From Flavobacterium suncheonense GH29-5 = DSM 17707 (lineage in GTDB: Bacteria > Bacteroidota > Bacteroidia > Flavobacteriales > Flavobacteriaceae), in the NCBI RefSeq assembly GCF_000430025.1, contig NZ_AUCZ01000010.1:1-64000 (forward strand): 64,000 nucleotides of DNA, written 5' to 3'. The notes under the pieces are model-generated. The model searched no databases and was not told the DNA's origin. It saw only the letters and a list, made by a program, of their open reading frames with translations. Positions 7,232-55,359 of this stretch are shown here, piece after piece. Position numbers and translations under genes: made by a program. Within the stretch, counting starts at the first letter, position 1. Each line of letters opens with the position of its first letter.

Positions 7232-7248
7232 TTCTTATTTTACTGAGT

Positions 7249-12463: not shown

Positions 12464-12469
12464 ATACGA

Positions 12470-12970: not shown

Positions 12971-13010
12971 TATAATGACTATAAAATGATTTAATTTTTT
13001 TTTTTAATAA

Positions 13011-13045: not shown

Positions 13046-13058
13046 CTGTTTCTCTTTA

Positions 13059-13256: not shown

Positions 13257-13286
13257 AAGTATATATATAAAAATTAAACTTCTAAA

Positions 13287-26609: not shown

Positions 26610-26633
26610 GGTGTTGTGTTGTTGATTCGGGTG

Positions 26634-26641
26634 CAAAAATA
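26634..26641 (-). promoter_or_regulatory. -7 promoter element of purD
   Basis: TATTTTTG on the minus strand, 25 bases upstream of the purD ATG. No good -33 element is seen. No PurR-like palindrome was noticed. Confidence 0.5.
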
Positions 26642-26697
26642 GTCGGTTTTCCACGGAAAAAAAAGTTTCAAGGCTTAGTTTATAGTTTCGGTTTTAC

Positions 26698-33496: not shown

Positions 33497-33514
33497 GAAA
33501 AACAGATTACATTT

Positions 33515-33546
33515 CAAAAGTAACTATTTTAACATGATCTTTGCAA
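33515..33546 (-). promoter_or_regulatory. Internal promoter of the glycan cluster, third unit
   Basis: TTG (33544-33546), then 21 bases, then TACTTTTG (33515-33522) on the minus strand. It shares GTTACTTTTGA with the promoter at 38449-38481. Confidence 0.65.
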
Positions 33547-33578
33547 GAAATGTTACAGATTGCTTGTTTTGACTCGGA

Positions 33579-34724
33579 TTAAATTTGTTGAAACAATTTT
33601 TCAAAATCCGTGATGTATTTTGTAACCGAAAAGTTTTGACGGGCACGTTCATAGCCTTTTTGCCCCATTTGTATCCTTAATTCAGGGTATGCAATCAATT
33701 TATGAAGCGCGGCTGATAATTCCGAAACATCGTTGGGAGCAATCAGATAACCGGTTCCTTTATTTTCGATGATTTCTCTTAAGCCGCCATGGTCAGAACC
33801 TATTACTGGTTTTTGGGCCAACATCGCTTCCAACGCAACCATTCCGAAAGACTCCGGTTCCGTAGACGGCATTAAAGCAATGTCGGTTATCGACCAGATC
33901 GGGGTGAGATCTAAAGTAAAAGGCAATATTTTTACCATATCATTTAACTGATTGTCTGCAATGATTTGCTCAACTTCCTCTAAATAATATTCCTGATTCA
34001 AAACCGGCGAACCAACAAATAAAAATTTCAGATTCTTATGCTTAGAAAAATGTTCTGTTATTGTTTTTAACACCCATTTATGTCCTTTCAGACGGCTTAT
34101 TCTCCCCACCAATGTCACTACAACATCCTCATTTTCGAATCCGTAATCTTCCTTGCCGATAAAAGAGCTGTCTTTGTTGTCAGGCTCCAATCCATTATGA
34201 ATGACCATTGCCTTTTTCGAAAGCTTTGGGTTTCGTTTGGTTAGATTTTCTTTTGTCGCATGTGAATTGCAAATGATTACATCCGAAAAACGATTCAGTA
34301 AAATTGGAAAAGCAGCGGCAAATATTTTCGGGTGTTCAATTATTTCATGGACATGCCATAAATGTCTTTTCTTTACTTTCATGGCAGACAGCATTCCTAA
34401 CAAAACCGCTAACGTATTCGAATAGATAAAATCAAATTGATGTTTGCGGTGTAACGCGGAAACCGTTTTTAGTCCTTTACGGATGTCCCTGACAAACCGC
34501 ACCAGATTTTTAGGTGTGAACATATCCCGGTACAGCTTTAAAACAGGAGCAATTACAACCTCAATGTTTACAAGCTCCAATTCCCTTTTTAAAGGCCCGT
34601 CAAAAGGCAAAATCACTACTGGATGAAACCTGCTTCTGTCCAGCTTTTGCAAAAGCAGTAACAGCGTTTTATCAGACCCGTAAAGTTCCGCTGATTGGTG
34701 TATGAATAAAATTTTTCTCATCAT
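33579..34724 (-). CDS. Family 4 glycosyltransferase
   Basis: A 381-residue GT-B enzyme. The N-terminus ILFIHQSAELYGSDKTLLLLLQKL has the family acceptor loop. The C-terminal donor domain has TLVGRISRLKGHKWVL (near residue 212) and MPSTEPESFGMVALEAMLAQKPVIGSDHGGLREII (near residue 295), including the E-x(7)-E motif of GT4. It transfers a sugar with retention of configuration at the cytoplasmic face. It overlaps the polymerase gene by four bases (ATGA) and is the last gene of the second transcription unit. Confidence 0.9.
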   Translation of the reverse strand: MMRKILFIHQSAELYGSDKTLLLLLQKLDRSRFHPVVILPFDGPLKRELELVNIEVVIAPVLKLYRDMFTPKNLVRFVRDIRKGLKTVSALHRKHQFDFIYSNTLAVLLGMLSAMKVKKRHLWHVHEIIEHPKIFAAAFPILLNRFSDVIICNSHATKENLTKRNPKLSKKAMVIHNGLEPDNKDSSFIGKEDYGFENEDVVVTLVGRISRLKGHKWVLKTITEHFSKHKNLKFLFVGSPVLNQEYYLEEVEQIIADNQLNDMVKILPFTLDLTPIWSITDIALMPSTEPESFGMVALEAMLAQKPVIGSDHGGLREIIENKGTGYLIAPNDVSELSAALHKLIAYPELRIQMGQKGYERARQNFSVTKYITDFEKLFQQI

Positions 34725-35956
34725 ACATTATTCTTTAGGAGCCGGTTTTTATACGCAAAGAGAAAGCCTATGAAAAGGGATTTGGTATCTACCAAATTAT
34801 AAAATCCCATAAACACCCAATTGGAAAAAATCAGGAAAACCCCGGTTCCTACAAAAAGATAATTAATATTTGTAAGCATTAGATTTGACGGAATTTTTTT
34901 TTCATCCCTTTTAAAAAAGAAAAATATGGTATACAAATAAATGATCACCCCAACAATGCCTGTTTTCAGGAAAACAGTCATATATCCGTTGTGCAAAATG
35001 GATATTTTCCGCAACAACATATCCCCCAGATAAATCTCCTTTTTCAAATCGACCTGAGCTCCAACTCCTTCCCCAAATATGTAGGTTTTGTTAAGGGTTA
35101 ACTGTTCTACTGTTCTTATATTTTCGTAAGAGCGGTAGTTGTCATTAAACTCTTTCCAGTTATCTTTATTTACCCTTGTGCTAAATGCCTCAATGGGTGC
35201 CACTTTGATTTTGTACAGAAATTCATCAATACCTTTTCCGTTTCGTTTCGGATTGTAAGAATAAATCAAAGCATAACTGATTCCTATAAACACAAGGGAC
35301 GACACTATCACAATCAAAGATCTTTTAGTCAGAATCAAAAGACCCTTTACTGCCATTACAAGAATAACAAACTGTATGAAGTTGGTCCTGGCCAAATAGA
35401 AAAAACTTGACAAACCCAATATGGTCAGAAAGATAATTCTCTGTTTATGCGTAAATCCTAAGTCAAACTGTTTCCAGAAGAGAAGTATGACAAAAATGTA
35501 TACTTCAAAATCATTGAAATACCCGGCATGAAACCTGATGTCTCTTACATTTCTCGCACCTTCGATTACAATGCCGTAACCAACAAGCAACAAATGATAA
35601 CTGGCTATTGCCACACCGGCATACACTAAAAACCGAAACGGTTTTTCAATTTTATCGCTGAACAACTGGTAGCCGATAATCAGTCCCAGTATCGGTTTGA
35701 GCATGTAAGTAATGTCCCGTATAACAAAATAAACTTCATGTTCGTAAAAGAAACCGACGATAATTGAAAGCATGAAAATTAACAGAAATCCTGCAAGATA
35801 CTTAACAAACGGCTTATAGTAGTTTTTTCTGAGTGTCACAAAAGTTGCCAAACTCCAGACAACAAAGGACAATTCATAGTTGTTAAAAAACGGGATCACT
35901 ACACAAATTATGAAAAGGACTTGGTTGTAGAATTCTTTATTCAGTGTAATTTTCAT
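34721..35956 (-). CDS. O-antigen polymerase-like membrane protein
   Basis: A 411-residue integral membrane protein with about eleven helices. A periplasmic loop contains GEGVGAQVDLKKEIYLGDMLLRKISILHNGYMTVFLKTGIVGV, in which the H-N-G-Y and G-x-x-G elements resemble the Wzy/WaaL superfamily. It most likely polymerises repeat units outside the membrane. The other polymerase or ligase-like protein at 31132-32448 probably has the complementary role, though which is which cannot be told. It is linked to its neighbours by ATGA overlaps. Confidence 0.75.
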   Translation of the reverse strand: MKITLNKEFYNQVLFIICVVIPFFNNYELSFVVWSLATFVTLRKNYYKPFVKYLAGFLLIFMLSIIVGFFYEHEVYFVIRDITYMLKPILGLIIGYQLFSDKIEKPFRFLVYAGVAIASYHLLLVGYGIVIEGARNVRDIRFHAGYFNDFEVYIFVILLFWKQFDLGFTHKQRIIFLTILGLSSFFYLARTNFIQFVILVMAVKGLLILTKRSLIVIVSSLVFIGISYALIYSYNPKRNGKGIDEFLYKIKVAPIEAFSTRVNKDNWKEFNDNYRSYENIRTVEQLTLNKTYIFGEGVGAQVDLKKEIYLGDMLLRKISILHNGYMTVFLKTGIVGVIIYLYTIFFFFKRDEKKIPSNLMLTNINYLFVGTGVFLIFSNWVFMGFYNLVDTKSLFIGFLFAYKNRLLKNNV

Positions 35957-36630
35957 CCTATTGTTTTTAAAATTTTTGCAGGAACACCGCCAATCACAAC
36001 ATTGTCCGGAAAAGTACCGTTAACAACTGCTCCTGCCGCAACTACGGTATTATTACCTATAGTGCTGCCGTCTAAAAAAGTAACTTTTGCTCCTACCCAA
36101 ACGTTGTTTCCTATTTTAATCCCTTTCGAAGTAACACCCTGTTCCCTAATCAGTTTATCCGGATTGCCGAATACATGATTCTCCGAATGAAAGCTAATGT
36201 AAGAACCCATGATTACATCATTTCCGATTTCAATGCCTCCGGATGCCCCAAAATGAGTGTAATCCCCAATGGCTGAATTATCACCCATCGTCAGTCCTTT
36301 TCCGTATTTTGAAAAATGACTCGTACAGGTTAAATGCGAATAGGCTCCAATTTTACAATTATGCCCTAGCGAAATTTTCTGAGAAGCATAGCCGTCTAAC
36401 CGCACTTGTCTTTCAATCGTTACATTTCGCCCGAAACTGAAATTGCTTTTGTTCCAGATTACTGTTCCGGAACCCAGGAATACTTTTCTTCTCAACTTGA
36501 ACAACCCTCTGGAAAGCATGACAAAGCGGATCCATAACGACCTCAGGATTAGGCTGTCCGGAATACGCGGGTCGAGCTCATAGCTTTTTCCCGTTTTTTG
36601 TAATAACGACTTAAAAAGGGCTTTAACCAT
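35953..36630 (-). CDS. Hexapeptide-repeat acyltransferase (WbbJ-like)
   Basis: A 225-residue enzyme of the left-handed beta-helix O-acetyltransferase family. Regular hexapeptides run from about residue 55 to 215, for example NVTIERQVRLDGYASQKISL and IGNNTVVAAGAVVNGTFPDNVVIGGVPAKIL at the end. The catalytic His is in ISFHSENHVF near residue 150. It should acetylate a hydroxyl or amino group on a sugar using acetyl-CoA. The end overlaps the polymerase start (ATGA), and the start overlaps the flippase stop by eight bases. Confidence 0.87.
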   Translation of the reverse strand: MVKALFKSLLQKTGKSYELDPRIPDSLILRSLWIRFVMLSRGLFKLRRKVFLGSGTVIWNKSNFSFGRNVTIERQVRLDGYASQKISLGHNCKIGAYSHLTCTSHFSKYGKGLTMGDNSAIGDYTHFGASGGIEIGNDVIMGSYISFHSENHVFGNPDKLIREQGVTSKGIKIGNNVWVGAKVTFLDGSTIGNNTVVAAGAVVNGTFPDNVVIGGVPAKILKTIG

Positions 36631-37900
36631 TCTGTTTTCTGAGTCTTATTTCTGAAAATTTTCCTCTGATGCAAAGTAAGTAAAATAAAATGACTATTGC
36701 TTCAGTTCCTATCAAACTGTAAAAAACGCCATAAACCTTATAATAGGGTAACACCAAAACAATAACCAGTAAATTGAGAACGACAACGACAGAAGTCAGC
36801 CGAACATAAAACCTGTTGAAATTCCAGCCCAATACTAATTGTTTCAACGGAATGGTGATGGCCAGAACTATTGGTATAAAAACGGCTACCCGTAAAAGGT
36901 TGCTCAGAAAATATCGGTTCGTCGGGTTGAAGTACGATACCACATCGTAAGAGAAAAAATAAAGAAAAACCATTCCGAAGAGTACAAAAACGAAGTTAAA
37001 CCCGTTGTAAATTTTCCAGTTCCGGATTCCTTTTTCCGGATTGGTTTCCAGCAGGTAACAGACTTTCGGGAATACATAATTGAAAAACAAAAAGATATAC
37101 GTCTTGAAAATCACAATGATTTGTTCTATGATTTTATACTGCCCCGCCATCAGGTTGTTGCCAAAAAAACTGATCAGCATCACTGGGGTATTCAGCTGCA
37201 GAGCCACAAAAATCTGCGAGGAAAACATAGAGAAATCCTTTTTAAGGAAATGCACAACGTCTTTAAAAGCAACGGTCCGGAATGAAAAACGATACACTTT
37301 AAAAATCAGAAACAGAAAAAAACCGTTGGCCAGTATCATCCCCAGCCCCCATAAAAAATTAACATACACATAATCGGAGGCCGATTTGACCATCACAAAA
37401 ACCCCCAACAGGTATATAAGTTTTGAAATGATGTTCGAAACCGTAATCCATTTTACGTTTTCCAGACCTTGCAGAAACCAGGTGGGATTTAAAAACTGCC
37501 CCGCCAGAACCATCATACTCATCAGAAACAAGGTCCGCTCGGCTTTAAAGTACGGAATTGTAAAGAACATCGTTATCGCCAGCAAGAGTACAACCAACAA
37601 AATAAGAAAACGTGACGTATAACTGACAAGCAGGATATTTTGCAGTGCCTCTTTATCATGCCGGTTAACAGATACTTCTCTTACTCCCACCAGGTCTGAA
37701 CCATAATCGACAAAAACAATCAGGAAAAAAGAAAGTGCCATTCCCACGGCTATTTTTCCGAAGTTTTCTTCACCGCAAATGCCTACGATATACGGCACAA
37801 CCAAAAGTGGTGTGACCAGATTGAATAGTTGCCCAAAGCCATAAACAATAAGTTTTTGGAATTGGGTGTTGGTTAGTATTTCTCTTAATTTCTTTAACAT
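36623..37900 (-). CDS. Wzx-type oligosaccharide flippase
   Basis: A 425-residue integral membrane protein with about 12 helices. The start KLIVYGFGQLFNLVTPLLVVPYIVGICGEENFGKIAVGM is typical of RfbX/Wzx O-antigen transporters, with HDKEALQNILLVSYTSRFLILLVV after it. It flips lipid-linked repeat units to the outer face of the inner membrane. It follows the lipoprotein gene by 12 bases and overlaps the acetyltransferase gene. This is the second flippase in the window, the other being at 5521-6987. Confidence 0.88.
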   Translation of the reverse strand: MLKKLREILTNTQFQKLIVYGFGQLFNLVTPLLVVPYIVGICGEENFGKIAVGMALSFFLIVFVDYGSDLVGVREVSVNRHDKEALQNILLVSYTSRFLILLVVLLLAITMFFTIPYFKAERTLFLMSMMVLAGQFLNPTWFLQGLENVKWITVSNIISKLIYLLGVFVMVKSASDYVYVNFLWGLGMILANGFFLFLIFKVYRFSFRTVAFKDVVHFLKKDFSMFSSQIFVALQLNTPVMLISFFGNNLMAGQYKIIEQIIVIFKTYIFLFFNYVFPKVCYLLETNPEKGIRNWKIYNGFNFVFVLFGMVFLYFFSYDVVSYFNPTNRYFLSNLLRVAVFIPIVLAITIPLKQLVLGWNFNRFYVRLTSVVVVLNLLVIVLVLPYYKVYGVFYSLIGTEAIVILFYLLCIRGKFSEIRLRKQNG

Positions 37901-37912: not shown

Positions 37913-38416
37913 CTACTTTTTAAATTTTAATTCTTCCAGTTTTACTGCTAAATAGTATCCGTTCGGATATAAGGAAGGACCGTTAGGCTGTTGCGCTTTT
38001 CGGGTTAAGGCTCCCGATTTTTCATCCAGAACTGTATTGGATTGATCGATACGAAAATATTTGTAAATGTCTTTGCCTTTGGCTTCGAATTTGTGGTTCT
38101 TGTATACAAATTCAAATTTATTGAAAATGATTTCGCCTTGTTTCGGATTGCGACCTAAATCCAATCGAACCTGAGTGGGAAGGGCATTCTTGGGAAACCG
38201 AATGTCAATTTTCTGGTTTTTGTCTTTGCCTTTCACCTTTACCCAGAACGAAGCCCCTTCATTAAAGTTAATCGTTCCGTCATTAGTGTAAAAAACCTGG
38301 ATGGAATCGTTTTGCTTCATCACAACATCAATATTCATTCTATACAACTGACTGTCGTTATCCCGCATACACGACGCAAAAAAGCACAAGCTGAATACTA
38401 AAATTGCTTTATACAT
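37913..38416 (-). CDS. Small lipoprotein, paralogue of the 38524-39072 product
   Basis: A 167-residue protein with a lipobox (VFSLCFFASC, Cys16). The body has alternating strands and a central PTQVRLDLGRNPKQGEIIF, followed by KGKDIYKYFRID. It aligns by eye with the neighbouring lipoprotein (shared DGTxNF, PTxxRLDxG, KYF). The fold looks like a beta-sandwich also seen as an extra domain in surface-glycan proteins. It has no enzyme motif. The ATG at 38416 starts the lipoprotein signal, and an upstream open frame of 18 codons was rejected. It begins the second transcription unit behind its own promoter. Confidence 0.75.
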   Translation of the reverse strand: MYKAILVFSLCFFASCMRDNDSQLYRMNIDVVMKQNDSIQVFYTNDGTINFNEGASFWVKVKGKDKNQKIDIRFPKNALPTQVRLDLGRNPKQGEIIFNKFEFVYKNHKFEAKGKDIYKYFRIDQSNTVLDEKSGALTRKAQQPNGPSLYPNGYYLAVKLEELKFKK

Positions 38417-38448
38417 GAACCTTTCTTTTATTCTAAATGCAAACATGT

Positions 38449-38481
38449 CAAAAGTAACCAATTTAAACAAAAAACCACAAA
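38449..38481 (-). promoter_or_regulatory. Internal promoter of the glycan cluster, second unit
   Basis: TTTG (38478-38481), a 21-base spacer and TACTTTTG (38449-38456) on the minus strand. The -33 element lies inside the preceding terminator. It shares GTTACTTTTGA with the promoter at 33515-33546. Confidence 0.65.
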
Positions 38482-38523: not shown

Positions 38524-39072
38524 TTATTTTTTAGTCGATGTAATCTTTATGATACCGTCTATAGATCCCTGAGCTGGATAATAGTATGGCGTTTTATAAA
38601 CACCATCTTTTTTCAAGATTGTCACCGTTCCTTTGGCAGCATCAATTTTAGTATTGAACTGTTTGTCTTCGATAAAATATTTGAAAAATTCAGATCCTTT
38701 GAATTGGAAATCCTTACCAAAGTAATCCACTTTTACATTTTTAATTACCACGGAATCCTGATCGTTGTTTAAACCGAAATCCAATCGGATATGCGTTGGC
38801 ATTTTTTCTTCCGATAAATTAAACGTCACTTTCTGAAATTCAGGACCTCCTTTGATACCAGCCCAAACGGCATTTATGTCTTTAAAATTTGTAGTTCCGT
38901 CTTCCGAGAAATACATGGCGAAATTGTCAGACTTCGCTGCTGAAGCTTCAATTTCTACATTAAAATATTTTTTAACATCTTTGTTTTCTTCTTTGCTTAC
39001 TTCTTTTTCATTTTTACAAGAAGTCAAAGTCGCAACTGCTGCGAATAAAACTATTAAAAACTTATTTTTCAT
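38524..39072 (-). CDS. Small lipoprotein beside the GT39 gene
   Basis: A 182-residue protein with a lipobox (FAAVATLTSC, Cys19), a short charged linker and a body of repeated strands. The centre MPTHIRLDFGLNNDQDSVVI and the GSEFFKYFIED segment match the neighbour at 37913-38416, so the two are tandem paralogues. It lies 41 bases after the GT39 stop and is the last gene before the strong terminator. It may recognise or hold a glycan at a membrane, but this is only inferred. The ATG at 39072 directly begins the lipoprotein signal. Confidence 0.75.
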   Translation of the reverse strand: MKNKFLIVLFAAVATLTSCKNEKEVSKEENKDVKKYFNVEIEASAAKSDNFAMYFSEDGTTNFKDINAVWAGIKGGPEFQKVTFNLSEEKMPTHIRLDFGLNNDQDSVVIKNVKVDYFGKDFQFKGSEFFKYFIEDKQFNTKIDAAKGTVTILKKDGVYKTPYYYPAQGSIDGIIKITSTKK

Positions 39073-39113
39073 TTTACTGGTTTTTTTGCAAATGTAATAG
39101 GTTTTTTGAAATG

Positions 39114-40976
39114 TCACTCTTTCTTTAGTTGAATATTTGAGATTTGCGCGTTTCTATCCAAACCACTCCCGGCGAAATCGTTTACAAACTCAATCGAAAT
39201 GGTTACCGTTTCGTCTTTTTCCTGAACAAAATCAAGGGTATATTCCTTATTGGCTTTTTCATCCAGTTCAATGCTTTTGTACATTTTTTGATTCAGATAG
39301 ATGTTAATTTTGGCATTTTCGTTGTTTATTTTCTGCTCCGGCATGCTCTTCCCTGAAATCACTAATTTGTATTTGCCTTTAGAAACAAACGTTGGTACAG
39401 ATGACGATTTAGAATTTTCAAAAAACATCAGGTTGCCGCTTCCGTCAAATTGGGCATTTTGAAATTGTGCTAATTTGATGGGTTTTACTTGCTGATCGGC
39501 TGCTTTTTTCGAAACAAAATGTTTCGCCCAGGCATCGTGCAATTCAATGGTCTGATCGATCGTGTAATTCTCCTGAATAAATTGTTCGGTTTCCGGAGTG
39601 ACTGCATAAGGCCTGGAATTCCCGTCGATATACCAGAACGATTCCTGAACCACCGTTTTGGTTTTGACATCGTTAATATACCAGTCTAAATTTTTCTCAT
39701 ACACATTCTTAATGGTAAAATCTTTGTCCAAATAAAAGGACAACAACCAACCCCAACTGGAAATAACGGTTTCGTTTTCTTTGTTTTGATCCTTAATTTG
39801 AAGGCAAATATCGTTGAACTGTGACTTTACCCGTGTTGTATAATATTGTTTTTCAACGGTTAAACTGTATAAAAACAAACCGGAAAGTAACAGTGTCACC
39901 AGTATTTTCAGTTTGTTGTTTTTTAAAAGCGAAATAGCCAAAGCTATCGTAAGCACCAACCCCGGAACGATCGGAGTCAGGTATCGGCTTAACATAACAG
40001 ATGTCTCACCCATGGATTTTATCAACACAAACAGAAAGTAAAAAAGTACCCAAACAAAAACCGCAATTGGTCCAAACCATACAGATTTATCCACTTTACC
40101 GATTTTATAACTTTTAATCAGTGCGGCGGCGATAACCACAACGATTGCCAAAACCGACAAATACAGCAATAGAGCATTCCCGCCTGATATCTGTTGCAGA
40201 ACTAGCATCACATAATCATACGTTGGCTTTTGCACCCAAAAACTAGTGATTTTGGAAGCATTGACCACTTTCGGATACACCGGTGCAAACACCAGTAAGG
40301 TAACAATACCGGCAAGGAAAGAATACCCGATGTAAGACATGCGTTCTTTCTTCGACTTTAAAAAGAAGAAAAAAATACCAATCACGATAAAGATACTGAT
40401 AACACTGATAATCCCTATGGGTTGTGCGTTGGTGATTAAGCCGATGAAAAGTCCGAGATAAAGGGCATTTTTCAGGTTTACCGCTTTCAAAAAGAGAATC
40501 AGTCTGTAAAAGGCGAGAATCACAAAAAGCATTAAAAGCGCATACGACCTTCCTTCCTGTGAATGTTCAATATGAAAAGGATGCACGGCCAATAAGAATG
40601 CCGCGATGTAGCCTGTATTTTTAGTAGCAACTTCTTTACCCAACAAATACATACTAAAAACACCCAGTACCCCAAAAATCAAGGATACAAAACGAATGGT
40701 GTACAACGTATGTCCAAAAATCAAACTGAAAAACCGGACAATCAGAAAATAAAGATGCGGAATCCCTTCCCGGAACATGTTTACTTCGTGAAATTCCTTT
40801 AAGGAAACATCCGGATCGGCTTCTTTCAAAGTGTGTAACTCATCAATCCAGGCGCCCTGAAAACCCAGATGGTAAAGCCGTAGGATAATACTCAAGCCAA
40901 GAATGGTTAAAAGAATGTAATTAAACTTTATAACCTTCTCGGAATGATTGACATTGATATTTATTGATATGTTCAT
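39114..40976 (-). CDS. GT39 (PMT/ArnT-like) membrane glycosyltransferase with C-terminal domain
   Basis: A 620-residue enzyme with about 11 to 12 helices in the first 370 residues. The first periplasmic loop has GAWIDELHTL with Asp45 and Glu46 in the place of the PMT/ArnT catalytic acidic pair. HPFHIEHSQEGRSYALLML (near residue 130) is also typical of the family. Residues from about 390 on are soluble, ending in a beta-rich domain of roughly 100 residues with ISNIQLKKE. Such enzymes use a polyprenyl-phosphate sugar as donor and act in the periplasm. It stands next to the SMR, GT2 and formyltransferase genes. Confidence 0.85.
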   Translation of the reverse strand: MNISININVNHSEKVIKFNYILLTILGLSIILRLYHLGFQGAWIDELHTLKEADPDVSLKEFHEVNMFREGIPHLYFLIVRFFSLIFGHTLYTIRFVSLIFGVLGVFSMYLLGKEVATKNTGYIAAFLLAVHPFHIEHSQEGRSYALLMLFVILAFYRLILFLKAVNLKNALYLGLFIGLITNAQPIGIISVISIFIVIGIFFFFLKSKKERMSYIGYSFLAGIVTLLVFAPVYPKVVNASKITSFWVQKPTYDYVMLVLQQISGGNALLLYLSVLAIVVVIAAALIKSYKIGKVDKSVWFGPIAVFVWVLFYFLFVLIKSMGETSVMLSRYLTPIVPGLVLTIALAISLLKNNKLKILVTLLLSGLFLYSLTVEKQYYTTRVKSQFNDICLQIKDQNKENETVISSWGWLLSFYLDKDFTIKNVYEKNLDWYINDVKTKTVVQESFWYIDGNSRPYAVTPETEQFIQENYTIDQTIELHDAWAKHFVSKKAADQQVKPIKLAQFQNAQFDGSGNLMFFENSKSSSVPTFVSKGKYKLVISGKSMPEQKINNENAKINIYLNQKMYKSIELDEKANKEYTLDFVQEKDETVTISIEFVNDFAGSGLDRNAQISNIQLKKE

Positions 40977-41807
40977 CTAAATTTTCTTTTTTGCAACAAT
41001 AAAACAACTGCTTCCAAAGGCAGTTTTCTTACCCAATTTAATATTTTGAATTTCTTTATCCCAAATCTTGTTCAATACCTTATCCATGAAACCGCTTTTA
41101 ACGGTATGCTCGTTCTTGTACTTGTCCAGATCATTTGAATTTTTGTGCATGCCTAATCGGCTTGGCAAAGAGCGCGACAAGAAGATTGGTAAAGGTAGTA
41201 AGGAAAACAGGTAACTGCTATAAGTAATTTCAAAACCAGCCTTCTTTAAGACTTCCTGCATGGATTTTAGGGTGTAGCGTCTGTAATGTCCTGCATCTTC
41301 ATCTTCGTTTGACCATAACGCCTGATACGCCGGAACCGTAACATAAAGTAATCCGCCCGGTTGTAAATAACCGTGAATCATTTGTAAAAATTCCATATCG
41401 TTTTCAATATGTTCCACGACATCAAAAACGCCGGCATTGGGTAACGATTCGGGCTTAAAATTGGCCTCCTGTAAGGTCGCACAAACGATGTTTTTCAGAC
41501 CTCTTTTTGCGGCATTCAGACAACCGTTTACTCCAGGTTCCACCAAAACAGTATCTACCCCGGCTTTTTCCATGTGTTGGGAAACATATCCGTTTCCGCC
41601 GCCAATATCAAAAAAGAGATTTTGTTTCGAATACTTTTGAAAGGCTTCCAAAATACAACGGTTCCGATGATTGAACCAAAAACTTTTGTCTTCCAGTACA
41701 AAACAATCATCGTTTCCTTTTTCCGGATACGAAATGTTATTTTTATGTTTGGAAAAGTGTATCCCGTCCTGTAAGATTAAATCTGAAGTAAACGTGTTGA
41801 TATCCAT
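40977..41807 (-). CDS. Class I SAM-dependent methyltransferase
   Basis: A 276-residue enzyme. The SAM motif I is FFDIGGGNGYVSQHM (near residue 66), with VDTVLVEPG for motif II and NAGVFDVVEHIENDMEFLQMIHGYLQPGGLLYVTVPA (near residue 130) as motifs of the small-molecule methyltransferase class. The C-terminal half has hydrophobic parts, seen in several EPS-cluster methyltransferases. It probably methylates a sugar or an amino-sugar in this pathway. The gene sits between GT39 and the aminotransferase with no gap (TAG immediately before, one-base overlap after). Confidence 0.85.
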   Translation of the reverse strand: MDINTFTSDLILQDGIHFSKHKNNISYPEKGNDDCFVLEDKSFWFNHRNRCILEAFQKYSKQNLFFDIGGGNGYVSQHMEKAGVDTVLVEPGVNGCLNAAKRGLKNIVCATLQEANFKPESLPNAGVFDVVEHIENDMEFLQMIHGYLQPGGLLYVTVPAYQALWSNEDEDAGHYRRYTLKSMQEVLKKAGFEITYSSYLFSLLPLPIFLSRSLPSRLGMHKNSNDLDKYKNEHTVKSGFMDKVLNKIWDKEIQNIKLGKKTAFGSSCFIVAKKKI

Positions 41808-42928
41808 TACGAAATAATTTGTTTGGTAACTGTTTCCGGATTTAATTCATAAAATAGGGGTAATCGAACCAATGTGTCGGTAAAACGATCCGTTTCCGTC
41901 AAATCCCTGCCGTCATGTTTTTCAGCATAAAAAGGACTGCTGTGCAGACTGATATAATGAAAAACAGGATGAATGTCTTGTTTTCGAAGCTTATCAATTA
42001 AAGCGGTGCGTTGCTCAATATTTTTACAGATTAGGTAAAACATGTGCCCGTTGTTCGTGGCATACTCCGGAACTTGCGGCAATCCAATCTGTTGCTCTTC
42101 GGCCCAACTTCTTAACTGCTTGAAATAATTGTCCCAATGCTGGGTTCTGACTTTCTGAATCTCTTCCAGATTCTCTAACTGTGCCCACAAAAAAGCTGCG
42201 ATTACTTCCGAAGGCAAAAAGGAACTTCCGATGTCCACCCAACCGTATTTGTCTACTTCTCCTCTGAAAAACGCTGAACGGTTCGTGCCTTTTTCCCAGA
42301 TAATTTCCGCACGCTGGATAAACTGCTCATCGTTGATGGCCAACATACCCCCTTCTCCGGAAATAATATTTTTGGTTTCATGAAACGAAAAAGCTGCCAA
42401 ATGACCGATGGAACCCAGCGCTCTTTTAACTCCATCTTTTCCAGTGTAATAACTGTCAATGGCTTGCGCGGCATCTTCCACCACATATAAATTATGCTTT
42501 TGCGCCAAATCCATAATGGTGTCCATTTCACAAGCTACACCGGCATAATGAACGGGAACAATGGCTTTGGTTTTTGGTGTAATTAAAGACTCCAGTTTTG
42601 AGGTATCCATGTTAGGATGGTTTTGCATGCTGTCGGCAAACACAATCTTCGCCCCGCGCAACACAAAAGCATTCGCAGTGGACACGAAAGTATACGACGG
42701 CATGATGACCTCATCACCTTCTTTGATGTCGATTAAAATGGCCGCCATTTCCAATGCATCAGTACACGATGTGGTCAGCAGGCATTTTATAAACCCAAAC
42801 TTTTCTTCAAAGAATTTTTGACATTTTTGGGTATACTTCCCATTACCGGAAATTTTACCTGAAGCTACTGCATCGGTAATATACTCCGTTTCTTTTCCTG
42901 TTAGATAAGGCTTGTTAAATGGTATCAT
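41807..42928 (-). CDS. WecE/RffA-like dTDP-4-amino-4,6-dideoxyhexose aminotransferase
   Basis: A 373-residue PLP enzyme of the DegT/DnrJ/EryC1 family. The start MIPFNKPYLTGKE and VTSCTDALEMAA-like TSCTDALEMA match WecE. EDAAQAID (near residue 151) holds the cofactor-contact Asp, and Lys186 in AFSFHETKN is the Schiff-base lysine. The FHETKN form is the one found in WecE/RffA rather than ArnB. It should aminate dTDP-4-keto-6-deoxyglucose, made by RfbA and RfbB of this window, to a 4-amino-4,6-dideoxyhexose. The formyltransferase gene is seven bases upstream. Confidence 0.88.
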   Translation of the reverse strand: MIPFNKPYLTGKETEYITDAVASGKISGNGKYTQKCQKFFEEKFGFIKCLLTTSCTDALEMAAILIDIKEGDEVIMPSYTFVSTANAFVLRGAKIVFADSMQNHPNMDTSKLESLITPKTKAIVPVHYAGVACEMDTIMDLAQKHNLYVVEDAAQAIDSYYTGKDGVKRALGSIGHLAAFSFHETKNIISGEGGMLAINDEQFIQRAEIIWEKGTNRSAFFRGEVDKYGWVDIGSSFLPSEVIAAFLWAQLENLEEIQKVRTQHWDNYFKQLRSWAEEQQIGLPQVPEYATNNGHMFYLICKNIEQRTALIDKLRKQDIHPVFHYISLHSSPFYAEKHDGRDLTETDRFTDTLVRLPLFYELNPETVTKQIIS

Positions 42929-42935
42929 TTGTAGA

Positions 42936-43601
42936 TTATTCTGCTACTTTTTTCCAAAACACCTCCGAAAGAAAACCAACGGTATACGGAAGTGCTGGTG
43001 AAAATGTTATATGCTTGTTATTAATTATAGCCTGTTTTGTACTGCCGGAATCAATCTTTAAAATCGTAAAAATCCCTCCCAACAAAAGCAGGGATGACGA
43101 CTTAAAAACCGTATCAATTACCTGTTCATCTTTATCCCAGTCTACCGGGAAAGACGATTGGTGTAAAATTTTACCGGCATCCACTTCTTCATTAACCATA
43201 TGGCAGCTGCCTCCCACAAAGCCCACATTCTGAATCTTGGCCTGCGCAACGGTTTCCATGCCTATCACACCGCCAAAAGCCGGTAATAAAGAATAATGCA
43301 AATTAACGAATCGTTCCGGATACAGGGAAAGGGTTTCGGTATCGATGATTTTATGAATGTTGGTAACGATGACGTCCGGAGCCAGATGGCGCAATTCCTG
43401 CTGGAGTTCTTCGGTATGGGTTCGGTTGTACTTGATTTTTCTGGCGTAAATGTTTTTATCCGCAGCAAAGTCAAGAGCCGTACAGTCCCGGTCTGCAATG
43501 ACCCCGACCACTTCAACATTCATCTTCAGCGCTTCCAAAGCGTAAAAAATGAATTTTAAAGAACCGCCACCACCGGAAACAAGAAAAACAATCCTATTCA
43601 T
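42936..43601 (-). CDS. PurN-like sugar N-formyltransferase
   Basis: A 221-residue enzyme with the catalytic Asn100, His102 and Asp141 arranged as in GAR formyltransferase (NLHYSLLPAFGG and EEVDAGKIL). The start MNRIVFLVSGGGGSLKFI is also PurN-like. PurN is a housekeeping gene normally linked to purine genes, but this copy lies between a GT2 and an aminotransferase in a glycan operon. I therefore infer that it formylates the amino-sugar nucleotide from the next enzyme, using N10-formyl-tetrahydrofolate. The ATG at 43601 overlaps the GT2 stop by eight bases; a TTG further upstream is unlikely. Confidence 0.82.
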   Translation of the reverse strand: MNRIVFLVSGGGGSLKFIFYALEALKMNVEVVGVIADRDCTALDFAADKNIYARKIKYNRTHTEELQQELRHLAPDVIVTNIHKIIDTETLSLYPERFVNLHYSLLPAFGGVIGMETVAQAKIQNVGFVGGSCHMVNEEVDAGKILHQSSFPVDWDKDEQVIDTVFKSSSLLLLGGIFTILKIDSGSTKQAIINNKHITFSPALPYTVGFLSEVFWKKVAE

Positions 43602-44520
43602 AAATTTTTTTAACAATGCTGTTGGGTCTTCCCTGCACCTGACGGAAAATCTTATAAATGTAAATACCGATAATCCCCAGAAAAGTTGAAATTACTCCTA
43701 ATATTAAAACGTTAATGGCTACAATCGAGGTCCAGCCTAATTGTACTTCGTCCTGATAAATTAATTTCTCGATACCAAGGTAAAGAATAAACAGAAAACT
43801 GAAAAAGGAAATTGTAATTCCAAAATAAAACAACCATTCCAGCGGTTTACCGGTGAACGACGTAATCGCCTGTAGCATCAGTTCAGCCCTTCGTTTTATG
43901 GAATAGGTACTGGCGCCTTCCCTAACGCCTTTTTTAACCGGCAGTCCTTTTTGGTTGAAGCCTATCCAATGCCACATTCCGCCCATGAACAAATTGGCAT
44001 CCTGAAGTTGTAACAACGCGTCGACATACTGTCGGGTCATCAAACGTTCGGTAAGCAGGTTGTGGGGGATTTTGGTGTCGGAAAGTTTATTTATGGCATG
44101 CCAAAACAGGCTGCCGGCATTTTTCTCAATAAAATTGCCTTTTCTGGTTTCCTGATAGCCATACACTACATCGAGCGTACTGTCTTTGCCCATTTCTTTA
44201 TAGTAATCCACGATTACATATGGAGACGTTTCCAAGTCATTGTCGATTAAAAAAACATACTCGCCTTTGGAATGCGCCAAACCGGCCTGTATGGCATAAT
44301 GATGCCCGAAATTTCGGGACAGATCAATCAGTTTCAGCTGCGGATACTGCTCTTTCTGCGCTAAAAGATAGGCAAGAGAATCATCCGGGGAACCGTCGTT
44401 CACAAAAATCAACTCGTACGCTTCAATTTTAAGAACTTTTATGGCCGCTGTCATTTCTTTGAGAAACACCTCCAGAAACGGTTTGGAACGATATAATGTG
44501 GTAACTACGGATAATTTCAT
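43594..44520 (-). CDS. GtrB/ArnC-like GT2 with two C-terminal helices
   Basis: A 308-residue enzyme that should move a sugar from a nucleotide to undecaprenyl phosphate. The GT-A part has LSVVTTLYRSKPFLEVFL, IFVNDGSPDDS, FGHHYAIQAGLAHSKG and FLIDNDLETSP (metal-binding DxD-like). The last 90 residues have two membrane helices (near 235-255 and 270-292). IYIYKIFRQVQGRPN ends the protein, as in polyisoprenyl-phosphate glycosyltransferases. It sits between the ATP-grasp and formyltransferase genes with overlapping ends on both sides. Confidence 0.87.
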   Translation of the reverse strand: MKLSVVTTLYRSKPFLEVFLKEMTAAIKVLKIEAYELIFVNDGSPDDSLAYLLAQKEQYPQLKLIDLSRNFGHHYAIQAGLAHSKGEYVFLIDNDLETSPYVIVDYYKEMGKDSTLDVVYGYQETRKGNFIEKNAGSLFWHAINKLSDTKIPHNLLTERLMTRQYVDALLQLQDANLFMGGMWHWIGFNQKGLPVKKGVREGASTYSIKRRAELMLQAITSFTGKPLEWLFYFGITISFFSFLFILYLGIEKLIYQDEVQLGWTSIVAINVLILGVISTFLGIIGIYIYKIFRQVQGRPNSIVKKIYE

Positions 44521-45626
44521 AATAGCTCGACTTTTTTATTCGATTGGTATATTAAATAACCTGAACGATCGTTGCTGTTGGTAACTTCCTTGAGCGTTTC
44601 ACTCAAAATTTGCTTTTCCACATCGAAAGCATTCACGCCGGAAAAATACGGATTTATTGCTTCTGTTTCCTTACAAAGAAAATAGACGCCTGAAAATTGA
44701 TGATTGTTTAAAACCGGTGACTCAAAAGAATTCAACGCAATATCGATTACGCCTTTAACAAAATCGTAACCTGTAGACAATGCCACCAAATGTGAACCGA
44801 TGAAATCACCGCCCATTCTAGCGCCCACTTCGATAACAAAAACTTCACCGTCCGGAGTAATTTTAAATTCGGAATGTCCTGCGCCGTTTTTAATATCCAA
44901 AGCGTCTAAACATTTTAATGTTTCTATTTTGATTTTCTCCTGAATGTCAGAAGGCAACTGCGAAGGTTGATGATGTGCTAATTCCACAAAGTGAGGCGCT
45001 CTTGTTGTGACTTTGTCAGTAATGGCCAAAATATAATGGCTGCCGTTCCAGGAAATAGTTTCTACACTCACTTCTGCTCCTTCGATATAGTGTTCCACTA
45101 AGGCTTGTCCGGAAAAAGATTCCTGAATGGCATAAGTAATGGCTGATTCCAAAGCATCTGCTGAAAGTACTTTGGTCACACCCCGGCTGCCGGAACGGTC
45201 TGCTGGTTTTACGATTACCGGAAAATGCAGGGACGGAACCTCCCTTTCCCATTCTGTAACTACCGCGAATTTTGGTATCGCGCAACACTGGGCGGCAAAT
45301 GCTTTTCGCATCTCCCCTTTATTGGTGGAAGCCAAAGCGGAAGCATACGAATTGGAGATTAAGTTTAGTTTTTCGGCTACATAGCAAATCGTCGGAACGG
45401 CCATGTCTGTGGCAATCGTGGTTATACCATCAATCCCTATTTCAGTACATTTCTCAAGGATTGCTTCCTTCTCCAAAATCGAAATCGGATAGAAATACGC
45501 TGCAACCTCTTTGCACACAGCTCCTTCCGGCCAGGCAAAACAGTGGGTCTCTATCCCCATCGCATTGGCTTTTTCCACTAACGGCAACTGCAGGTAACTT
45601 GCTCCGATTATGGCTAATTTTTTCAT
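44517..45626 (-). CDS. ATP-grasp ligase
   Basis: A 369-residue enzyme. The N-terminal pre-ATP-grasp fold has MKKLAIIGASYLQLPLVEKA. The core has FPVIVKPADRSGSRGVTKV (near residue 134, the ATP-binding lysine loop), ALVEHYIEGAEVSVETISW (near residue 172) and FVIEVGARMGGDFIGSHLV (near residue 267, the metal ligands). Members join a carboxylate to an amine or thiol with ATP. In this glycan operon it could attach an amino or hydroxy acid to an amino-sugar, but the substrate is not visible. It overlaps the next gene by four bases. Confidence 0.83.
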   Translation of the reverse strand: MKKLAIIGASYLQLPLVEKANAMGIETHCFAWPEGAVCKEVAAYFYPISILEKEAILEKCTEIGIDGITTIATDMAVPTICYVAEKLNLISNSYASALASTNKGEMRKAFAAQCCAIPKFAVVTEWEREVPSLHFPVIVKPADRSGSRGVTKVLSADALESAITYAIQESFSGQALVEHYIEGAEVSVETISWNGSHYILAITDKVTTRAPHFVELAHHQPSQLPSDIQEKIKIETLKCLDALDIKNGAGHSEFKITPDGEVFVIEVGARMGGDFIGSHLVALSTGYDFVKGVIDIALNSFESPVLNNHQFSGVYFLCKETEAINPYFSGVNAFDVEKQILSETLKEVTNSNDRSGYLIYQSNKKVELL

Positions 45627-45629
45627 ATC

Positions 45630-46031
45630 CTAATACTTCACCGTAACCATAGTTCCAACAATAATCAACACCAAACCAACTGCTTTCCCCACGGTAAAGG
45701 TTTCACCCAAAAATAAAACCCCAATCATAAAAACCAGAGCCGGCGCCAGACTCATAAAAGGATATGCTGTGGTAATTTCTAATTTAGTCATGGCGGCCAT
45801 CCAGAAAAGCGAGGCTATAAAAGCCGAAACAAATCCGGAAAACACAAAAGGATCAAGAATCAGTTTGGTTAAATAAATTCCTTTATCTATCACCCTTTCT
45901 GGTAAAATCACTTTTAAAAGAGACAACCTCCATTTGAGAACAATCTGACCGTAAACCGTAAAAAACAGGGTACCCGCAATATATAGGTATGGATTCATAT
46001 ACCGGAAAAAATTTAATAATGACGAATTCAT
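45630..46031 (-). CDS. SMR/EamA-like four-helix membrane protein (ArnE/ArnF-like)
   Basis: A 133-residue protein with about four helices. They are PYLYIAGTLFFTVYGQIVLKW, a second around residue 60, a third with AYPFMSLAPALVFMIGVLF, and a last with GLVLIIVGTMV. The SLAPALV part with an upstream Y-P and a final GETFTVGKAVGLVLIIVG is typical of small multidrug resistance-like subunits such as ArnE/ArnF. ArnE/F is thought to flip undecaprenyl-phosphate aminoarabinose. It is the first gene of the cluster. The ATG at 46031 is preceded by AGAGGAA, so it was chosen over a later ATG at 45998. Confidence 0.75.
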   Translation of the reverse strand: MNSSLLNFFRYMNPYLYIAGTLFFTVYGQIVLKWRLSLLKVILPERVIDKGIYLTKLILDPFVFSGFVSAFIASLFWMAAMTKLEITTAYPFMSLAPALVFMIGVLFLGETFTVGKAVGLVLIIVGTMVTVKY

Positions 46032-46227: not shown

Positions 46228-49200
46228 ATGAAATCGACAGCTACGTTATTCTACTTGTTTGTTCTGTTCTTGTTAAATCCTGCTTGGTCGCAGAGCCTTG
46301 CCATCAATGAAGTGCTTTCGTCCAATACGTCGGTCAATGCCGATGAAGACGGGAATTACGAAGACTGGGTGGAAATCTACAATTACGGCGGAATTCCCGT
46401 CAACATGAACGGTTACGGTCTTTCGGATGAAGCTGCATTGCCTTTTAAATGGGCCTTTCCCAATATCACCCTGAATCCCGGACAATACCTTTTGGTCTGG
46501 TGTTCCGATAAAAACCGCATTACGGTGGGTAATCCGCTGCATACCAATTTCAAAATCAGTTCGGCAGGAGAAACAATCCGGCTGACCAGTCCTTCTTCGG
46601 TAACCGTAAGCACTATGCCGGCAGTGGCTTTACAACCCAATGTTTCCTACGGAAAATCCCCGAACGGAACCGGCAGTTATTTTTATTTTGCAACCCCCAC
46701 ACCCGGACAGCCCAATTCCACAACAGCGTATGCGGAAGCGCTGAATCCACCTTCCTTTTCCCAATTGGGCGGTTTTTACACCACCGGATTTAACCTGAGT
46801 CTTTCTTCGGCTACACCCGGAACCACCATCATTTACACGCTGGACGGCTCCGATCCCGACGAAAACAACCTGGCCGGCACCACCTATTCCTATAAAAACA
46901 GCTATGCCGAACTGGCCGGACAATCCGGAGGGCCGATGCTGCAAAACAGTTTCCGCTCGTTTACCTACAGCTCGCCCATCACCATTGTAAACCGATCGGC
47001 ACAAGCCAACAAACTCGCGGCCATCTCTTCCACCCAGCACCATACTCCCGCTTATCTCCCGTCAAGCCCCATCTTTAAAGGAACAGTCGTACGGGCAAAA
47101 GTCATAAAACCGGGTGCCTTGCCCAGTAAGACAACTTCTCATACTTATTTTATAACGCCTGCCGGCAGCAGTGAATTTTCGCTTCCGGTAGCCTCTATCA
47201 GCCTTTCTGAAAACAAATTGTTCAGCTATACCAATGGCATTTTCGTGGCCGGTTTGTTGTTCGATAACTGGAGAACAGCTAATCCTACGGTAGATTCTGA
47301 TATTTACGAAAACAATTTTGACGCCAACTTCCATGTGTCGGGTGATGCTTCCGAACGCTCCGGCAACATTACCTATCTGGTAAACGGCACCGAAGTCGTC
47401 AATCAGGATATCGGTCTGCGGATTAACGGAGATTCCTCTCGAGGCTGGCAAAGCAAATCCTTCCGGTTGGTGGCCAGGGGCGAATACGGCAATGAAACGA
47501 TAAACTATGCCTTTTTTAACGATACGCCGTTGTCGGTGTTTAACCGTCTGATTTTGCGCAACTCCGGTGGCGATTTTTTCGACACCATGTACCGCGATGC
47601 CTTTGCCCAGGAACTGGTAAAAGGAACCGGATTGGAAACCCAGGCTTATCAGCCCACCATCACTTTTGTAAACGGGGAATACTGGGGCATTTTAAATTTA
47701 CGGGAACGCTATGATAAATATTATTTTAAAAACCTGTACGACATCGGGGAAAACCAACTCGATTTGCTGGAAGACGATTTAAGGGCCACCGAAGGTGATG
47801 ATGTGCACTACAATGCCATGGCCTCTTATTTAACCAACAACAGCTTGGCAATTCAGGCGAATTTCGACTATATCAAAACCCAGATGGATGTAGACAACCT
47901 TCGGGATTATTACATTGCCAACATTTATTTCGACAATGTAGACTGGCCGGGCTGGAATACCGTTTTCTGGAGAAAAAAAACCGCTGCCTACCAACCGAAT
48001 GCCCTTTACGGACAAGACGGAAGATGGCGGGCGGCCATGAAAGACAACGACGACTGTTTCGGAATGACCACCGGTATGATGAATCACAACAATTTAGCCG
48101 TGGCGACCGATCCTAATGGCCCCGAATATCCGAATCCGCCTTCGTCTACCCTGATTTTACGAAGTCTTTTGGCCAATAACACCTTTAAAAACAATTTCAT
48201 CAACCGGTTTGCCGATCTGATGAACACCTATTTTCTGCCCAGCCGTTTTACCGCCGTGTCCAATGCCATGAAAGCCCGCATTCAGCCCGAAATGCAGGAA
48301 CATCTCAACCGCTGGAACGCTTCGGATTACGGATGGTGGGAAGAAGCCATCAGCAACATGAACAACTTCGGAAATGTAAGGCCTGCCTTTCAGCGCCAGC
48401 ACATCCGGGCTAAATTCGGCATCAGTTCCAACATTACGGCAACTCTGGATGTTTCCGAAATGGCACACGGGTATATCAAAATGAATACCGTTGATATTAC
48501 AGAAAATACGCCCGGGGTTTCCGCAAATCCTTATCCGTGGACGGGGATTTATTTCCACAACATTCCGGTAACCCTGAAAGCCATTCCGTTAAACGGCTAC
48601 CAGTTCAGTCATTGGAGCGGGGCTTCCACCAGTACAGACCCTGAGATTACGATTACCCCTACAGCTAATTTTTCGGTTACGGCCCATTTCATTCCGACGG
48701 GAAATACCAATACGCCGCAGATTATTTATTATTGGATGATGGACACGGCACTTGCCAACGATACGCCTTTAACCGCTGTCAATTCGACTTATGAACTTAA
48801 TCCGGAAGGCGTTTTGCAATACCAATCCTGTCTGGTGGGTTATCCTTTTACCAGCACCCATCCAAACTGGCGGAAAGCATCTATGGAGCGCCGCAACAGT
48901 CCGACTCCGTTAAATTATATTCCGCAGGTGAATGGCGGAAAAGAATATGCGTTTTCGGATATGCGGGGTTTACAAATAAAACAACCGTTCCAGAGTGGCG
49001 GTTTGCAAAACACCATGATTTTCAATTTCTCTACAGCCGGATACCAAAACATTAAATTTGCTTTTGCTGCCTTAGACGAAGGGGCCGCCACCGGTATTAC
49101 TATTGATTATGCCACCAATGCCGGAGCTCCGGTATGGACGACTGCCGGAATGAGCGCTTCTTCCTACCCGATTACCAATGCCTACCAGCGCATCGAAACG

Positions 49201-49584
49201 GATTTTACGCCAATTGCGGCTGCCAACAACAATCCGAATTTTAAAGTACGCCTCCGTTTCACCGGACCTAACATGACCGCCGACACCGGAGCGCGGGTAA
49301 CCTTTAACAATGTTAGTGTGGAAGGGGTTGCCACCACTTTAAGTGTTCCCGAAAATCCGCTTCCTGAATTCTTAGTTTATCCTAATCCGGTACAGGATGT
49401 TTTACACTTAATGCATGATTACGCTTTCGTAGAGTATACGCTCTTCACCATCGACGGCAGAATCATCAGAAAGGGAACTCTGGACAACCGGGAGCTTAAT
49501 GTTTCATCGCTTCCTTCCGGGGTGTATCTGTTGCGCTTACAGGCCGATGATAAAACCGCTGTTAGAAAATTCATCAAACAATAG
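46228..49584 (+). CDS. Type IX secreted CotH-kinase protein, first copy
   Basis: A 1118-residue secreted protein. Signal peptide 1-22; lamin-tail domain about 23-150 (AINEVLSSN, DWVEIYNYG); a chitobiase-C-like domain about 165-310 (IYTLDGSDPDE). The CotH kinase-like core is about 320-690, with IGLRINGDSSRGWQSKSFRLVA-type, GEYWGILNLRERYDKYYF and the metal-binding D606-N-D608-D-C-F-G. Next come a bacterial repeat domain (GYQFSHWSGAS), a beta-sandwich and a type IX sorting domain (VYPNPVQD, SSLPSGVYLLRL, KFIKQ end). CotH proteins phosphorylate proteins outside the cell in spore-formers; the target here is unknown. It is a tandem duplicate of the next gene. Confidence 0.88.
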   Translation: MKSTATLFYLFVLFLLNPAWSQSLAINEVLSSNTSVNADEDGNYEDWVEIYNYGGIPVNMNGYGLSDEAALPFKWAFPNITLNPGQYLLVWCSDKNRITVGNPLHTNFKISSAGETIRLTSPSSVTVSTMPAVALQPNVSYGKSPNGTGSYFYFATPTPGQPNSTTAYAEALNPPSFSQLGGFYTTGFNLSLSSATPGTTIIYTLDGSDPDENNLAGTTYSYKNSYAELAGQSGGPMLQNSFRSFTYSSPITIVNRSAQANKLAAISSTQHHTPAYLPSSPIFKGTVVRAKVIKPGALPSKTTSHTYFITPAGSSEFSLPVASISLSENKLFSYTNGIFVAGLLFDNWRTANPTVDSDIYENNFDANFHVSGDASERSGNITYLVNGTEVVNQDIGLRINGDSSRGWQSKSFRLVARGEYGNETINYAFFNDTPLSVFNRLILRNSGGDFFDTMYRDAFAQELVKGTGLETQAYQPTITFVNGEYWGILNLRERYDKYYFKNLYDIGENQLDLLEDDLRATEGDDVHYNAMASYLTNNSLAIQANFDYIKTQMDVDNLRDYYIANIYFDNVDWPGWNTVFWRKKTAAYQPNALYGQDGRWRAAMKDNDDCFGMTTGMMNHNNLAVATDPNGPEYPNPPSSTLILRSLLANNTFKNNFINRFADLMNTYFLPSRFTAVSNAMKARIQPEMQEHLNRWNASDYGWWEEAISNMNNFGNVRPAFQRQHIRAKFGISSNITATLDVSEMAHGYIKMNTVDITENTPGVSANPYPWTGIYFHNIPVTLKAIPLNGYQFSHWSGASTSTDPEITITPTANFSVTAHFIPTGNTNTPQIIYYWMMDTALANDTPLTAVNSTYELNPEGVLQYQSCLVGYPFTSTHPNWRKASMERRNSPTPLNYIPQVNGGKEYAFSDMRGLQIKQPFQSGGLQNTMIFNFSTAGYQNIKFAFAALDEGAATGITIDYATNAGAPVWTTAGMSASSYPITNAYQRIETDFTPIAAANNNPNFKVRLRFTGPNMTADTGARVTFNNVSVEGVATTLSVPENPLPEFLVYPNPVQDVLHLMHDYAFVEYTLFTIDGRIIRKGTLDNRELNVSSLPSGVYLLRLQADDKTAVRKFIKQ

Positions 49585-54472: not shown

Positions 54473-54478
54473 ATCCCG

Positions 54479-55336: not shown

Positions 55337-55359
55337 TCTATTGACAGTAAAATGATGCT

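Follow-up and report, generated by a model that had tools for sequence, protein, structure and literature searches.

What sugar is made by the cassette of seven genes and a lipoprotein gene at positions 38524-46031 of a 64,000-nucleotide stretch of the Flavobacterium suncheonense GH29-5 genome (contig NZ_AUCZ01000010.1; henceforth the window), and how might that sugar reach its acceptor? A sequence-only reading had proposed a relay like that of the lipid A aminoarabinose (Arn) pathway, in which a formylated 4-amino-4,6-dideoxyhexose is loaded onto undecaprenyl phosphate, flipped and transferred in the periplasm. We propose, with a probability of roughly one half, that the genes form a three-component cassette for periplasmic glycan modification that also encodes its own sugar pathway and would make an N-formyl-aminoacyl form of 4-amino-4,6-dideoxygalactose (Fuc4N). 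The genes of the region are:

45630-46031, minus strand: small membrane protein of the SMR/EamA type, putative flippase (Pfam EamA 41.6 bits, cut-off 28.2)
44517-45626, minus strand: ATP-grasp ligase (ATP-grasp_4, 78.7 bits)
43594-44520, minus strand: GT2 glycosyltransferase of the ArnC/PgfS/sll0501 type (Glycos_transf_2, 77.3 bits)
42936-43601, minus strand: PurN-like formyltransferase (Formyl_trans_N, 86.6 bits)
41807-42928, minus strand: WecE, dTDP-4-amino-4,6-dideoxygalactose transaminase (DegT, 284.9 bits)
40977-41807, minus strand: S-adenosylmethionine-dependent methyltransferase, accessory (Methyltransf_23, 51.2 bits)
39114-40976, minus strand: GT39 transferase (GT-C, PMT_2) with a C-terminal beta domain (PMT_2 52.1 bits, CBM60 34.6 bits)
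38524-39117, minus strand: lipoprotein, predicted to be beta-rich (lipobox with a Ser-Cys pair; no Pfam match)
37913-38470, minus strand: second lipoprotein, paralogue of the first by alignment with 38524-39117

As the sequence-only reading described, the seven genes are adjacent and a lipoprotein gene follows them; all are intact open reading frames on the minus strand, separated by at most 7 bases or slightly overlapping, and the start codons of the SMR and lipoprotein genes are uncertain, later ATGs being possible. The cassette is confirmed as a real and ordinary-looking surface-glycan operon built from parts of known kinds. Its aminotransferase, already recognized as a WecE-type enzyme yielding a 4-amino-4,6-dideoxyhexose, is on sequence grounds firmly assigned as WecE: it scores 574.9 bits with PRK11706 (equivalog cut-off 375) and 532 bits with TIGR02379 (cut-off 434.85), and has 4piw as a solved relative (E 3.3e-128).

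The formyltransferase had been likened to the N-terminal part of ArnA, and here the scores point elsewhere. Against NCBIfam it reaches 85.7 bits with PurN (below the cut-off of 150.1) and 26.1 bits with ArnA (cut-off 777), and a profile of 15 members of its family, compared with solved structures, places PurN and PurU on top (PurN 93 bits), the sugar N-formyltransferases scoring 38.8 (WlaRD), 34.9 (WbkC type), 29.7 (ArnA) and 27.5 bits (dTDP-Qui4N type, Qui4N being 4-amino-4,6-dideoxyglucose). On these scores an ArnA-like domain was rejected, and the enzyme is closer to PurN than to the characterised sugar N-formyltransferases of the ArnA/VioF/WbkC type. Nor is it the housekeeping PurN, because the genome keeps its own PurN, encoded separately (154.7 bits). 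Residues N100, H102 and D141 are invariant in all 15 aligned members and match the same positions of the genome's own PurN; we take them to correspond to the catalytic N106, H108 and D144 of E. coli PurN. The GSN loop, which in PurN has a role in phosphate binding, reads GSN in the genome's own PurN, whereas the formyltransferase family has GG and then S, T or N. Counting the F. suncheonense genome itself, such enzymes were found in 1 of 397 genomes sampled across the bacterial family (that genome only) and in 3 of 398 in the genus, and elsewhere in 7 of 120 genomes of the genus of a Hymenobacter locus and in 1 of 173 of the genus of a Chryseobacterium locus. At one related locus (L013, 13006-14813), a second, different protein with a formyltransferase domain is encoded beside a 340-residue protein without a Pfam match.

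What accompanies this enzyme was read from 18 loci, comprising 14 from a scan of named genomes (F. silvisoli and F. saliperosum among them), the window, and three further Hymenobacter loci (L062-L064) whose genomes were covered as 16 kb stretches; gene content, families and neighbourhood patterns were obtained directly. In the stretches examined, the formyltransferase gene has exactly one of two mutually unrelated partners within two genes at all 18 loci: none shows both, and none shows neither. The partner is an ATP-grasp protein, adjacent or one gene off, in six (window, L002, L003, L005, L006 and L010) and a WbqC-like protein, at most two genes away, in 12 (L004, L007-L009, L011-L015 and L062-L064). 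Searched genome-wide at E<=1e-15, nine WbqC-type genomes gave no match to the ATP-grasp protein. All 12 linked WbqC copies exceed the PF08889 cut-off (230-266 bits) and are additional to a low-scoring WbqC (85-132 bits) carried by 17 of the 18 genomes. WbqC has no solved relative at E<=0.1, and the literature searched on WbqC, glycine transferase and N-acetylglycyl yielded no paper listed as giving it a function. The closest solved relative of the ATP-grasp protein is 3vot, the L-amino acid ligase BL00235 (E 5.7e-27), and a WecE-like gene lies close to the ATP-grasp gene in all nine genomes of the genus that carry one, the copy in G702 being only 44% identical. A second ATP-grasp protein, with a PylC-like N-domain, is encoded at one of these loci (L038 of genome G549, 12446-13408). 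The ligase had earlier been regarded as an addition to the relay; it is probably central to the pathway. We propose that it joins an amino acid to dTDP-Fuc4N at the 4-amine.

How would two such enzymes share one sugar? dTDP-Fuc4N carries a single amine, and two amine-acylating enzymes are kept together; serial action is therefore the simplest account. Alternatively, the formyltransferase could act straight on the 4-amine of dTDP-Fuc4N, with the relay delivering N-formylated Fuc4N and the ATP-grasp enzyme serving another sugar, a lipid or an acceptor. The NeuD/PglB/VioB family, which appears in the same slot in relatives (see below), includes enzymes that act directly on sugar 4-amines. Direct formylation would leave the ATP-grasp or WbqC partner at all 18 loci unexplained, and it fits poorly with a profile that scores 93 bits with PurN and at most 39 with sugar N-formyltransferases. 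Formyl and acetyl Qui4N are nonetheless known products (excerpts of PMC3210612), and we regard direct formylation as unlikely. Of the formylated 4-amino-4,6-dideoxyhexose relayed via undecaprenyl phosphate in the sequence-only reading, the WecE sugar, the type of GT2 and the GT-C enzyme stand, whereas the formyl group is probably on the attached amino acid and not directly on the sugar.

The enzyme proposed to cap the amino acid can itself be exchanged. The ATP-grasp protein was found in nine of the 398 genomes of the genus (five candidates were scored per genome, so that the counts for this protein and for the GT2 are lower bounds). Three of the nine have the formyltransferase, and in five others (G617, G620, G702, G707 and G789) a NeuD/PglD-like gene takes its place; of the four run against NCBIfam (all but G702), two exceed the NeuD cut-off and two fall slightly under it. 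A NeuD/PglD-like protein over that cut-off is also encoded in G440, which has the GT2 and, on a short contig, no ATP-grasp match. In G707 (L039, 7091-8759), a PhyH-type dioxygenase gene and a methyltransferase gene lie between those of the GT2 and the PglD-like protein. F. lacisediminis, whose cassette is of the ATP-grasp type, has a second polysaccharide cluster (L066, 8556-11624) in which WbqC lies by a DegT aminotransferase, a PglD-like protein and a methyltransferase-sized gene. With this WbqC and PglD-like set included, each of the two amino acid adders is seen with each of the two caps. More generally, a two-step chemistry in the style of glycinamide, ligation followed by PurN-like formylation, may have been recruited for surface sugars, with ATP-grasp and WbqC, and likewise PurN-like and NeuD-like enzymes, interchangeable; this broader proposal is tentative, and we hold it at somewhat less than an even chance.

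Is the sugar then moved to the periplasm before use? The sequence-only reading had called the GT2 a GtrB/ArnC-like enzyme with two helices, and our searches agree: the protein matches PgfS (181 bits) and ArnC (112.5 bits, cut-off 529), in both cases under the cut-off, its solved relatives include sll0501 (5ekp, E 2e-39) and ArnC (9hwj, E 5.2e-27), and it has two C-terminal hydrophobic regions. It belongs to the polyprenyl-phosphate type, and we propose that it loads the sugar onto undecaprenyl phosphate. At 15 of the 18 loci the formyltransferase gene has one for an ArnC/PgfS-like GT2 in its neighbourhood, assigned by NCBIfam for five (window, L004, L007, L013 and L014) and by BLAST similarity for the other ten; these loci come from Flavobacterium, Hymenobacter, Saprospira and two metagenome-assembled genomes. 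Across the 398 genomes the GT2 (eight genomes) and the ATP-grasp protein (nine) coincide in six (hypergeometric P 4e-10, uncorrected for kinship); the divergent GT2 of G707 came only from reading its region.

The GT39 protein, which the sequence-only reading had matched to ArnT, reaches 52.1 bits with PMT_2, over the cut-off, and GT-C enzymes lead the fold matches of its predicted structure, a low-confidence model (predicted local distance difference test score, pLDDT, 58.7) used for fold class only; it aligns with ArnT (5f15) at Z 16.1 and a root-mean-square deviation of 6.7 over 407 residues, and with oligosaccharyltransferase at a higher Z of 18.8. We propose that GT39 is the periplasmic transferase. 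A CBM60-like domain lies at its C-terminus (residues 553-618; 34.6 bits, Pfam cut-off 28.2).

Were the proposed sugar consumed in the cytoplasm instead, the GT2 would be an ordinary cytoplasmic transferase and export would go through Wzx, with no separate flip. ATP-grasp, cap and WecE genes do occur without a nearby ArnC-like GT2 in L006, L010, G617 and G789 (the contig of L006 being 13 kb long and that of G789 only 6.2 kb), and the SMR protein was not found in several relatives. The GT2 is nevertheless of the polyprenyl-phosphate type, with its two C-terminal hydrophobic regions and ArnC among its solved relatives, and at L002, L003, L005 and L039, as in the window, the set continues into a GT39-type gene; we regard cytoplasmic use as quite improbable.

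The genes that supply the proposed sugar and acceptor lie upstream and downstream of the cassette:

53085-56370, minus strand: rmlD, rmlC, rmlA and rmlB, each over its NCBIfam equivalog cut-off
28030-37900, minus strand: downstream polysaccharide cluster by Pfam, encoding Wzx, a hexapeptide transferase, a Wzy-like protein, GT4, a second Wzy-like protein, SDR, a PglC-type protein and GT2

With rmlABCD upstream, dTDP-4-keto-6-deoxyglucose should be available. From there we infer all substrates, the order of the steps, the flipping and the acceptor as follows. RmlA and RmlB would produce dTDP-4-keto-6-deoxyglucose, which WecE would convert to dTDP-Fuc4N; the ATP-grasp ligase would couple the 4-amine to an amino acid, most likely glycine or alanine, whose alpha-amine the PurN-like enzyme would then formylate. 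In a variant, the amino acid would be formylated before ligation, with an identical product. The GT2 would then place the N-formyl-aminoacyl sugar on undecaprenyl phosphate, the SMR protein would flip the lipid-linked sugar, and the GT-C enzyme would transfer it in the periplasm, probably onto the polysaccharide of the adjacent Wzx/Wzy cluster. Of the two Wzy-like genes there, that at 31132-32478 is over the Pfam cut-off and that at 34721-35956 under it (28.7 of 31.7 bits).

A different acceptor, such as the lipid A core, a lipoprotein or surface proteins, is doubtful. It would accord with PMT_2 enzymes and the PgfS system, which act on proteins or other acceptors, and with the lipoprotein genes that adjoin GT39; against it, at L002, L003 and L039, as in the window, Wzx and Wzy-like genes come straight after the cassette. 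Relatives of the lipoprotein at 38524-39117 adjoin GT39 in L002, L003, L005 and L039, and the pair of paralogues recurs in L003 and L039. Its model (pLDDT 77) has as best fold match 2xhh, a calcium-dependent carbohydrate module, at E 0.015, with no match at E 0.001. A relationship to the C-terminal domain of GT39 was rejected, profile comparison giving no similarity (hhalign E 0.48 over 14 columns).

How well does the relay hold together among relatives? The sequence-only reading expected its genes to be kept together, and this holds for the GT2 with the formyltransferase and partly fails for the SMR and GT39 genes. Four Flavobacterium sets combine GT2, formyltransferase and GT39 genes (the window, L002, L003 and L005). 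The full seven occur in the window alone, and a conserved whole of seven genes is not supported: L002 is without the SMR gene, L003 without any relative of the methyltransferase gene and L005 without both. The SMR gene adjoins the ATP-grasp gene in two of these four sets, and a genome-wide search was negative in the other two. Its product matches ArnF best (40.1 bits, cut-off 99), with 18 bits for ArnE (cut-off 92).

Several observations weigh against the pathway and relay as we propose them. The formyltransferase served as the query by which the loci were collected, and a single species accounts for both Saprospira loci. Unlinked extra high-scoring WbqC copies occur in G794, G795, G807 and G919, that of F. 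lacisediminis (G794) lying on another contig than its ATP-grasp set, and the proposed role of WbqC as a glycine transferase was not found in the literature searched. WecE was not seen in the examined stretches of four Hymenobacter and two Saprospira loci. One ATP-grasp genome, G549, shows neither cap; conversely, a single cluster in L007 (10001-15112) encodes formyltransferase, PglD-like protein, WbqC, PgfS-like GT2, methyltransferase and WecE, and the two caps are therefore not strict alternatives. An ArnC-like GT2 was not seen near the formyltransferase in L006, L008 and L010. The SMR protein, present in the window and three of seven relatives, was not found genome-wide (E<=1e-5) in the other four; its role as flippase is therefore uncertain, or could be filled by another protein. 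Finally, apart from the window, BLAST placed GT39 relatives close to the set at L002, L003, L005 and L039 only, all of them Flavobacterium sets; in each of three further loci one membrane protein was scanned, none with a Pfam match, a scan that may miss other kinds of GT-C enzyme.

Further genes of the region stand apart from the pathway. Between the cassette and rmlABCD, and divergent from the operon, two tandem genes (46228-49584 and 49744-53070) encode proteins with CotH-kinase, lamin-tail and Por_Secre_tail domains, and L003 has at the equivalent position (4117-7458) an open reading frame whose N-terminus resembles them. The purD gene (GARS, 25338-26654) is found towards the end of the polysaccharide cluster, and a gene that weakly matches AMP-binding is its neighbour at 26723-28033.

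If correct, the broader proposal would assign the WbqC family a candidate role and set PurN-like formyltransferases of aminoacyl sugars apart as a new class, and it would provide a candidate pathway for N-formyl-aminoacyl glycans. It also yields a testable rule for the gene sets of N-acylated amino sugars in Bacteroidota, namely an aminotransferase, an amino acid adder and a cap. What is new here is that the ligase pairs with the PurN-like enzyme, and that WbqC and NeuD-type enzymes can take their places.

Compared with known systems, the cassette shares with Arn its classes of steps: aminotransferase, formylation, ArnC-like GT2, SMR protein and GT-C enzyme. It differs in having WecE for ArnB, a PurN-like enzyme for the ArnA formyltransferase and an additional ATP-grasp ligase, and the ArnA dehydrogenase and ArnD are without counterpart in it. 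As noted in the sequence-only reading, no ArnD-type deformylase is present in the cassette, none having a Pfam match among the nine cassette-region proteins scanned, and the two Polysacc_deac_1 matches of the genome lie on another contig (C6); likewise, none was recognised beside the homologous sets, of whose neighbours some were scanned. Membership of the Arn pathway was rejected, since no cassette protein reaches an Arn model cut-off (ArnA 26.1 of 777 bits, ArnB 205.9 of 631, ArnC 112.5 of 529, ArnF 40.1 of 99 and ArnE 18 of 92; no ArnT match was listed in the NCBIfam scan). A relay of lipid charging, flipping and periplasmic transfer is plausible, and it is the Arn label that falls.

Three-component periplasmic systems of the GtrABC type, exemplified by ORF12-15 of C. 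youngae (PMC11127046, in excerpt), likewise have, next to a polysaccharide cluster, an enzyme that charges a lipid phosphate, a small protein resembling a flippase and a GT-C transferase. The cassette differs by its own nucleotide-sugar pathway (aminotransferase, ligase and formyltransferase) and by a flippase-like gene that is not conserved among relatives; under the proposal, such systems would come to include one that makes its own formylated amino sugar. By analogy with PurD and PurN, an ATP-grasp enzyme would add an amino acid to a sugar amine and a PurN-fold enzyme would formylate it. The proposed substrate is dTDP-Fuc4N and not phosphoribosylamine, the PurN GSN loop is altered, and the genome retains its own PurN and PurD.

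For the product itself, an N-formyl-L-alanyl group has been reported in V. anguillarum O2 (PMC10059132, in excerpt); no gene was assigned to an N-formyl-aminoacyl substituent in the literature searched (its scope mostly leaving aside subscription journals), the available sections of that paper included. N-acetylglycyl and hydroxybutyryl-alanyl Qui4N, and N-acetyl-alanyl forms of both Qui4N and 3-amino-3,6-dideoxyglucose (Qui3N), are known (excerpts of PMC3210612), and O-antigens with such N-acetylglycyl or N-acetylalanyl sugars would resemble the cassette product in carrying an amino acid with a capped amine, the cap proposed here being a formyl group.

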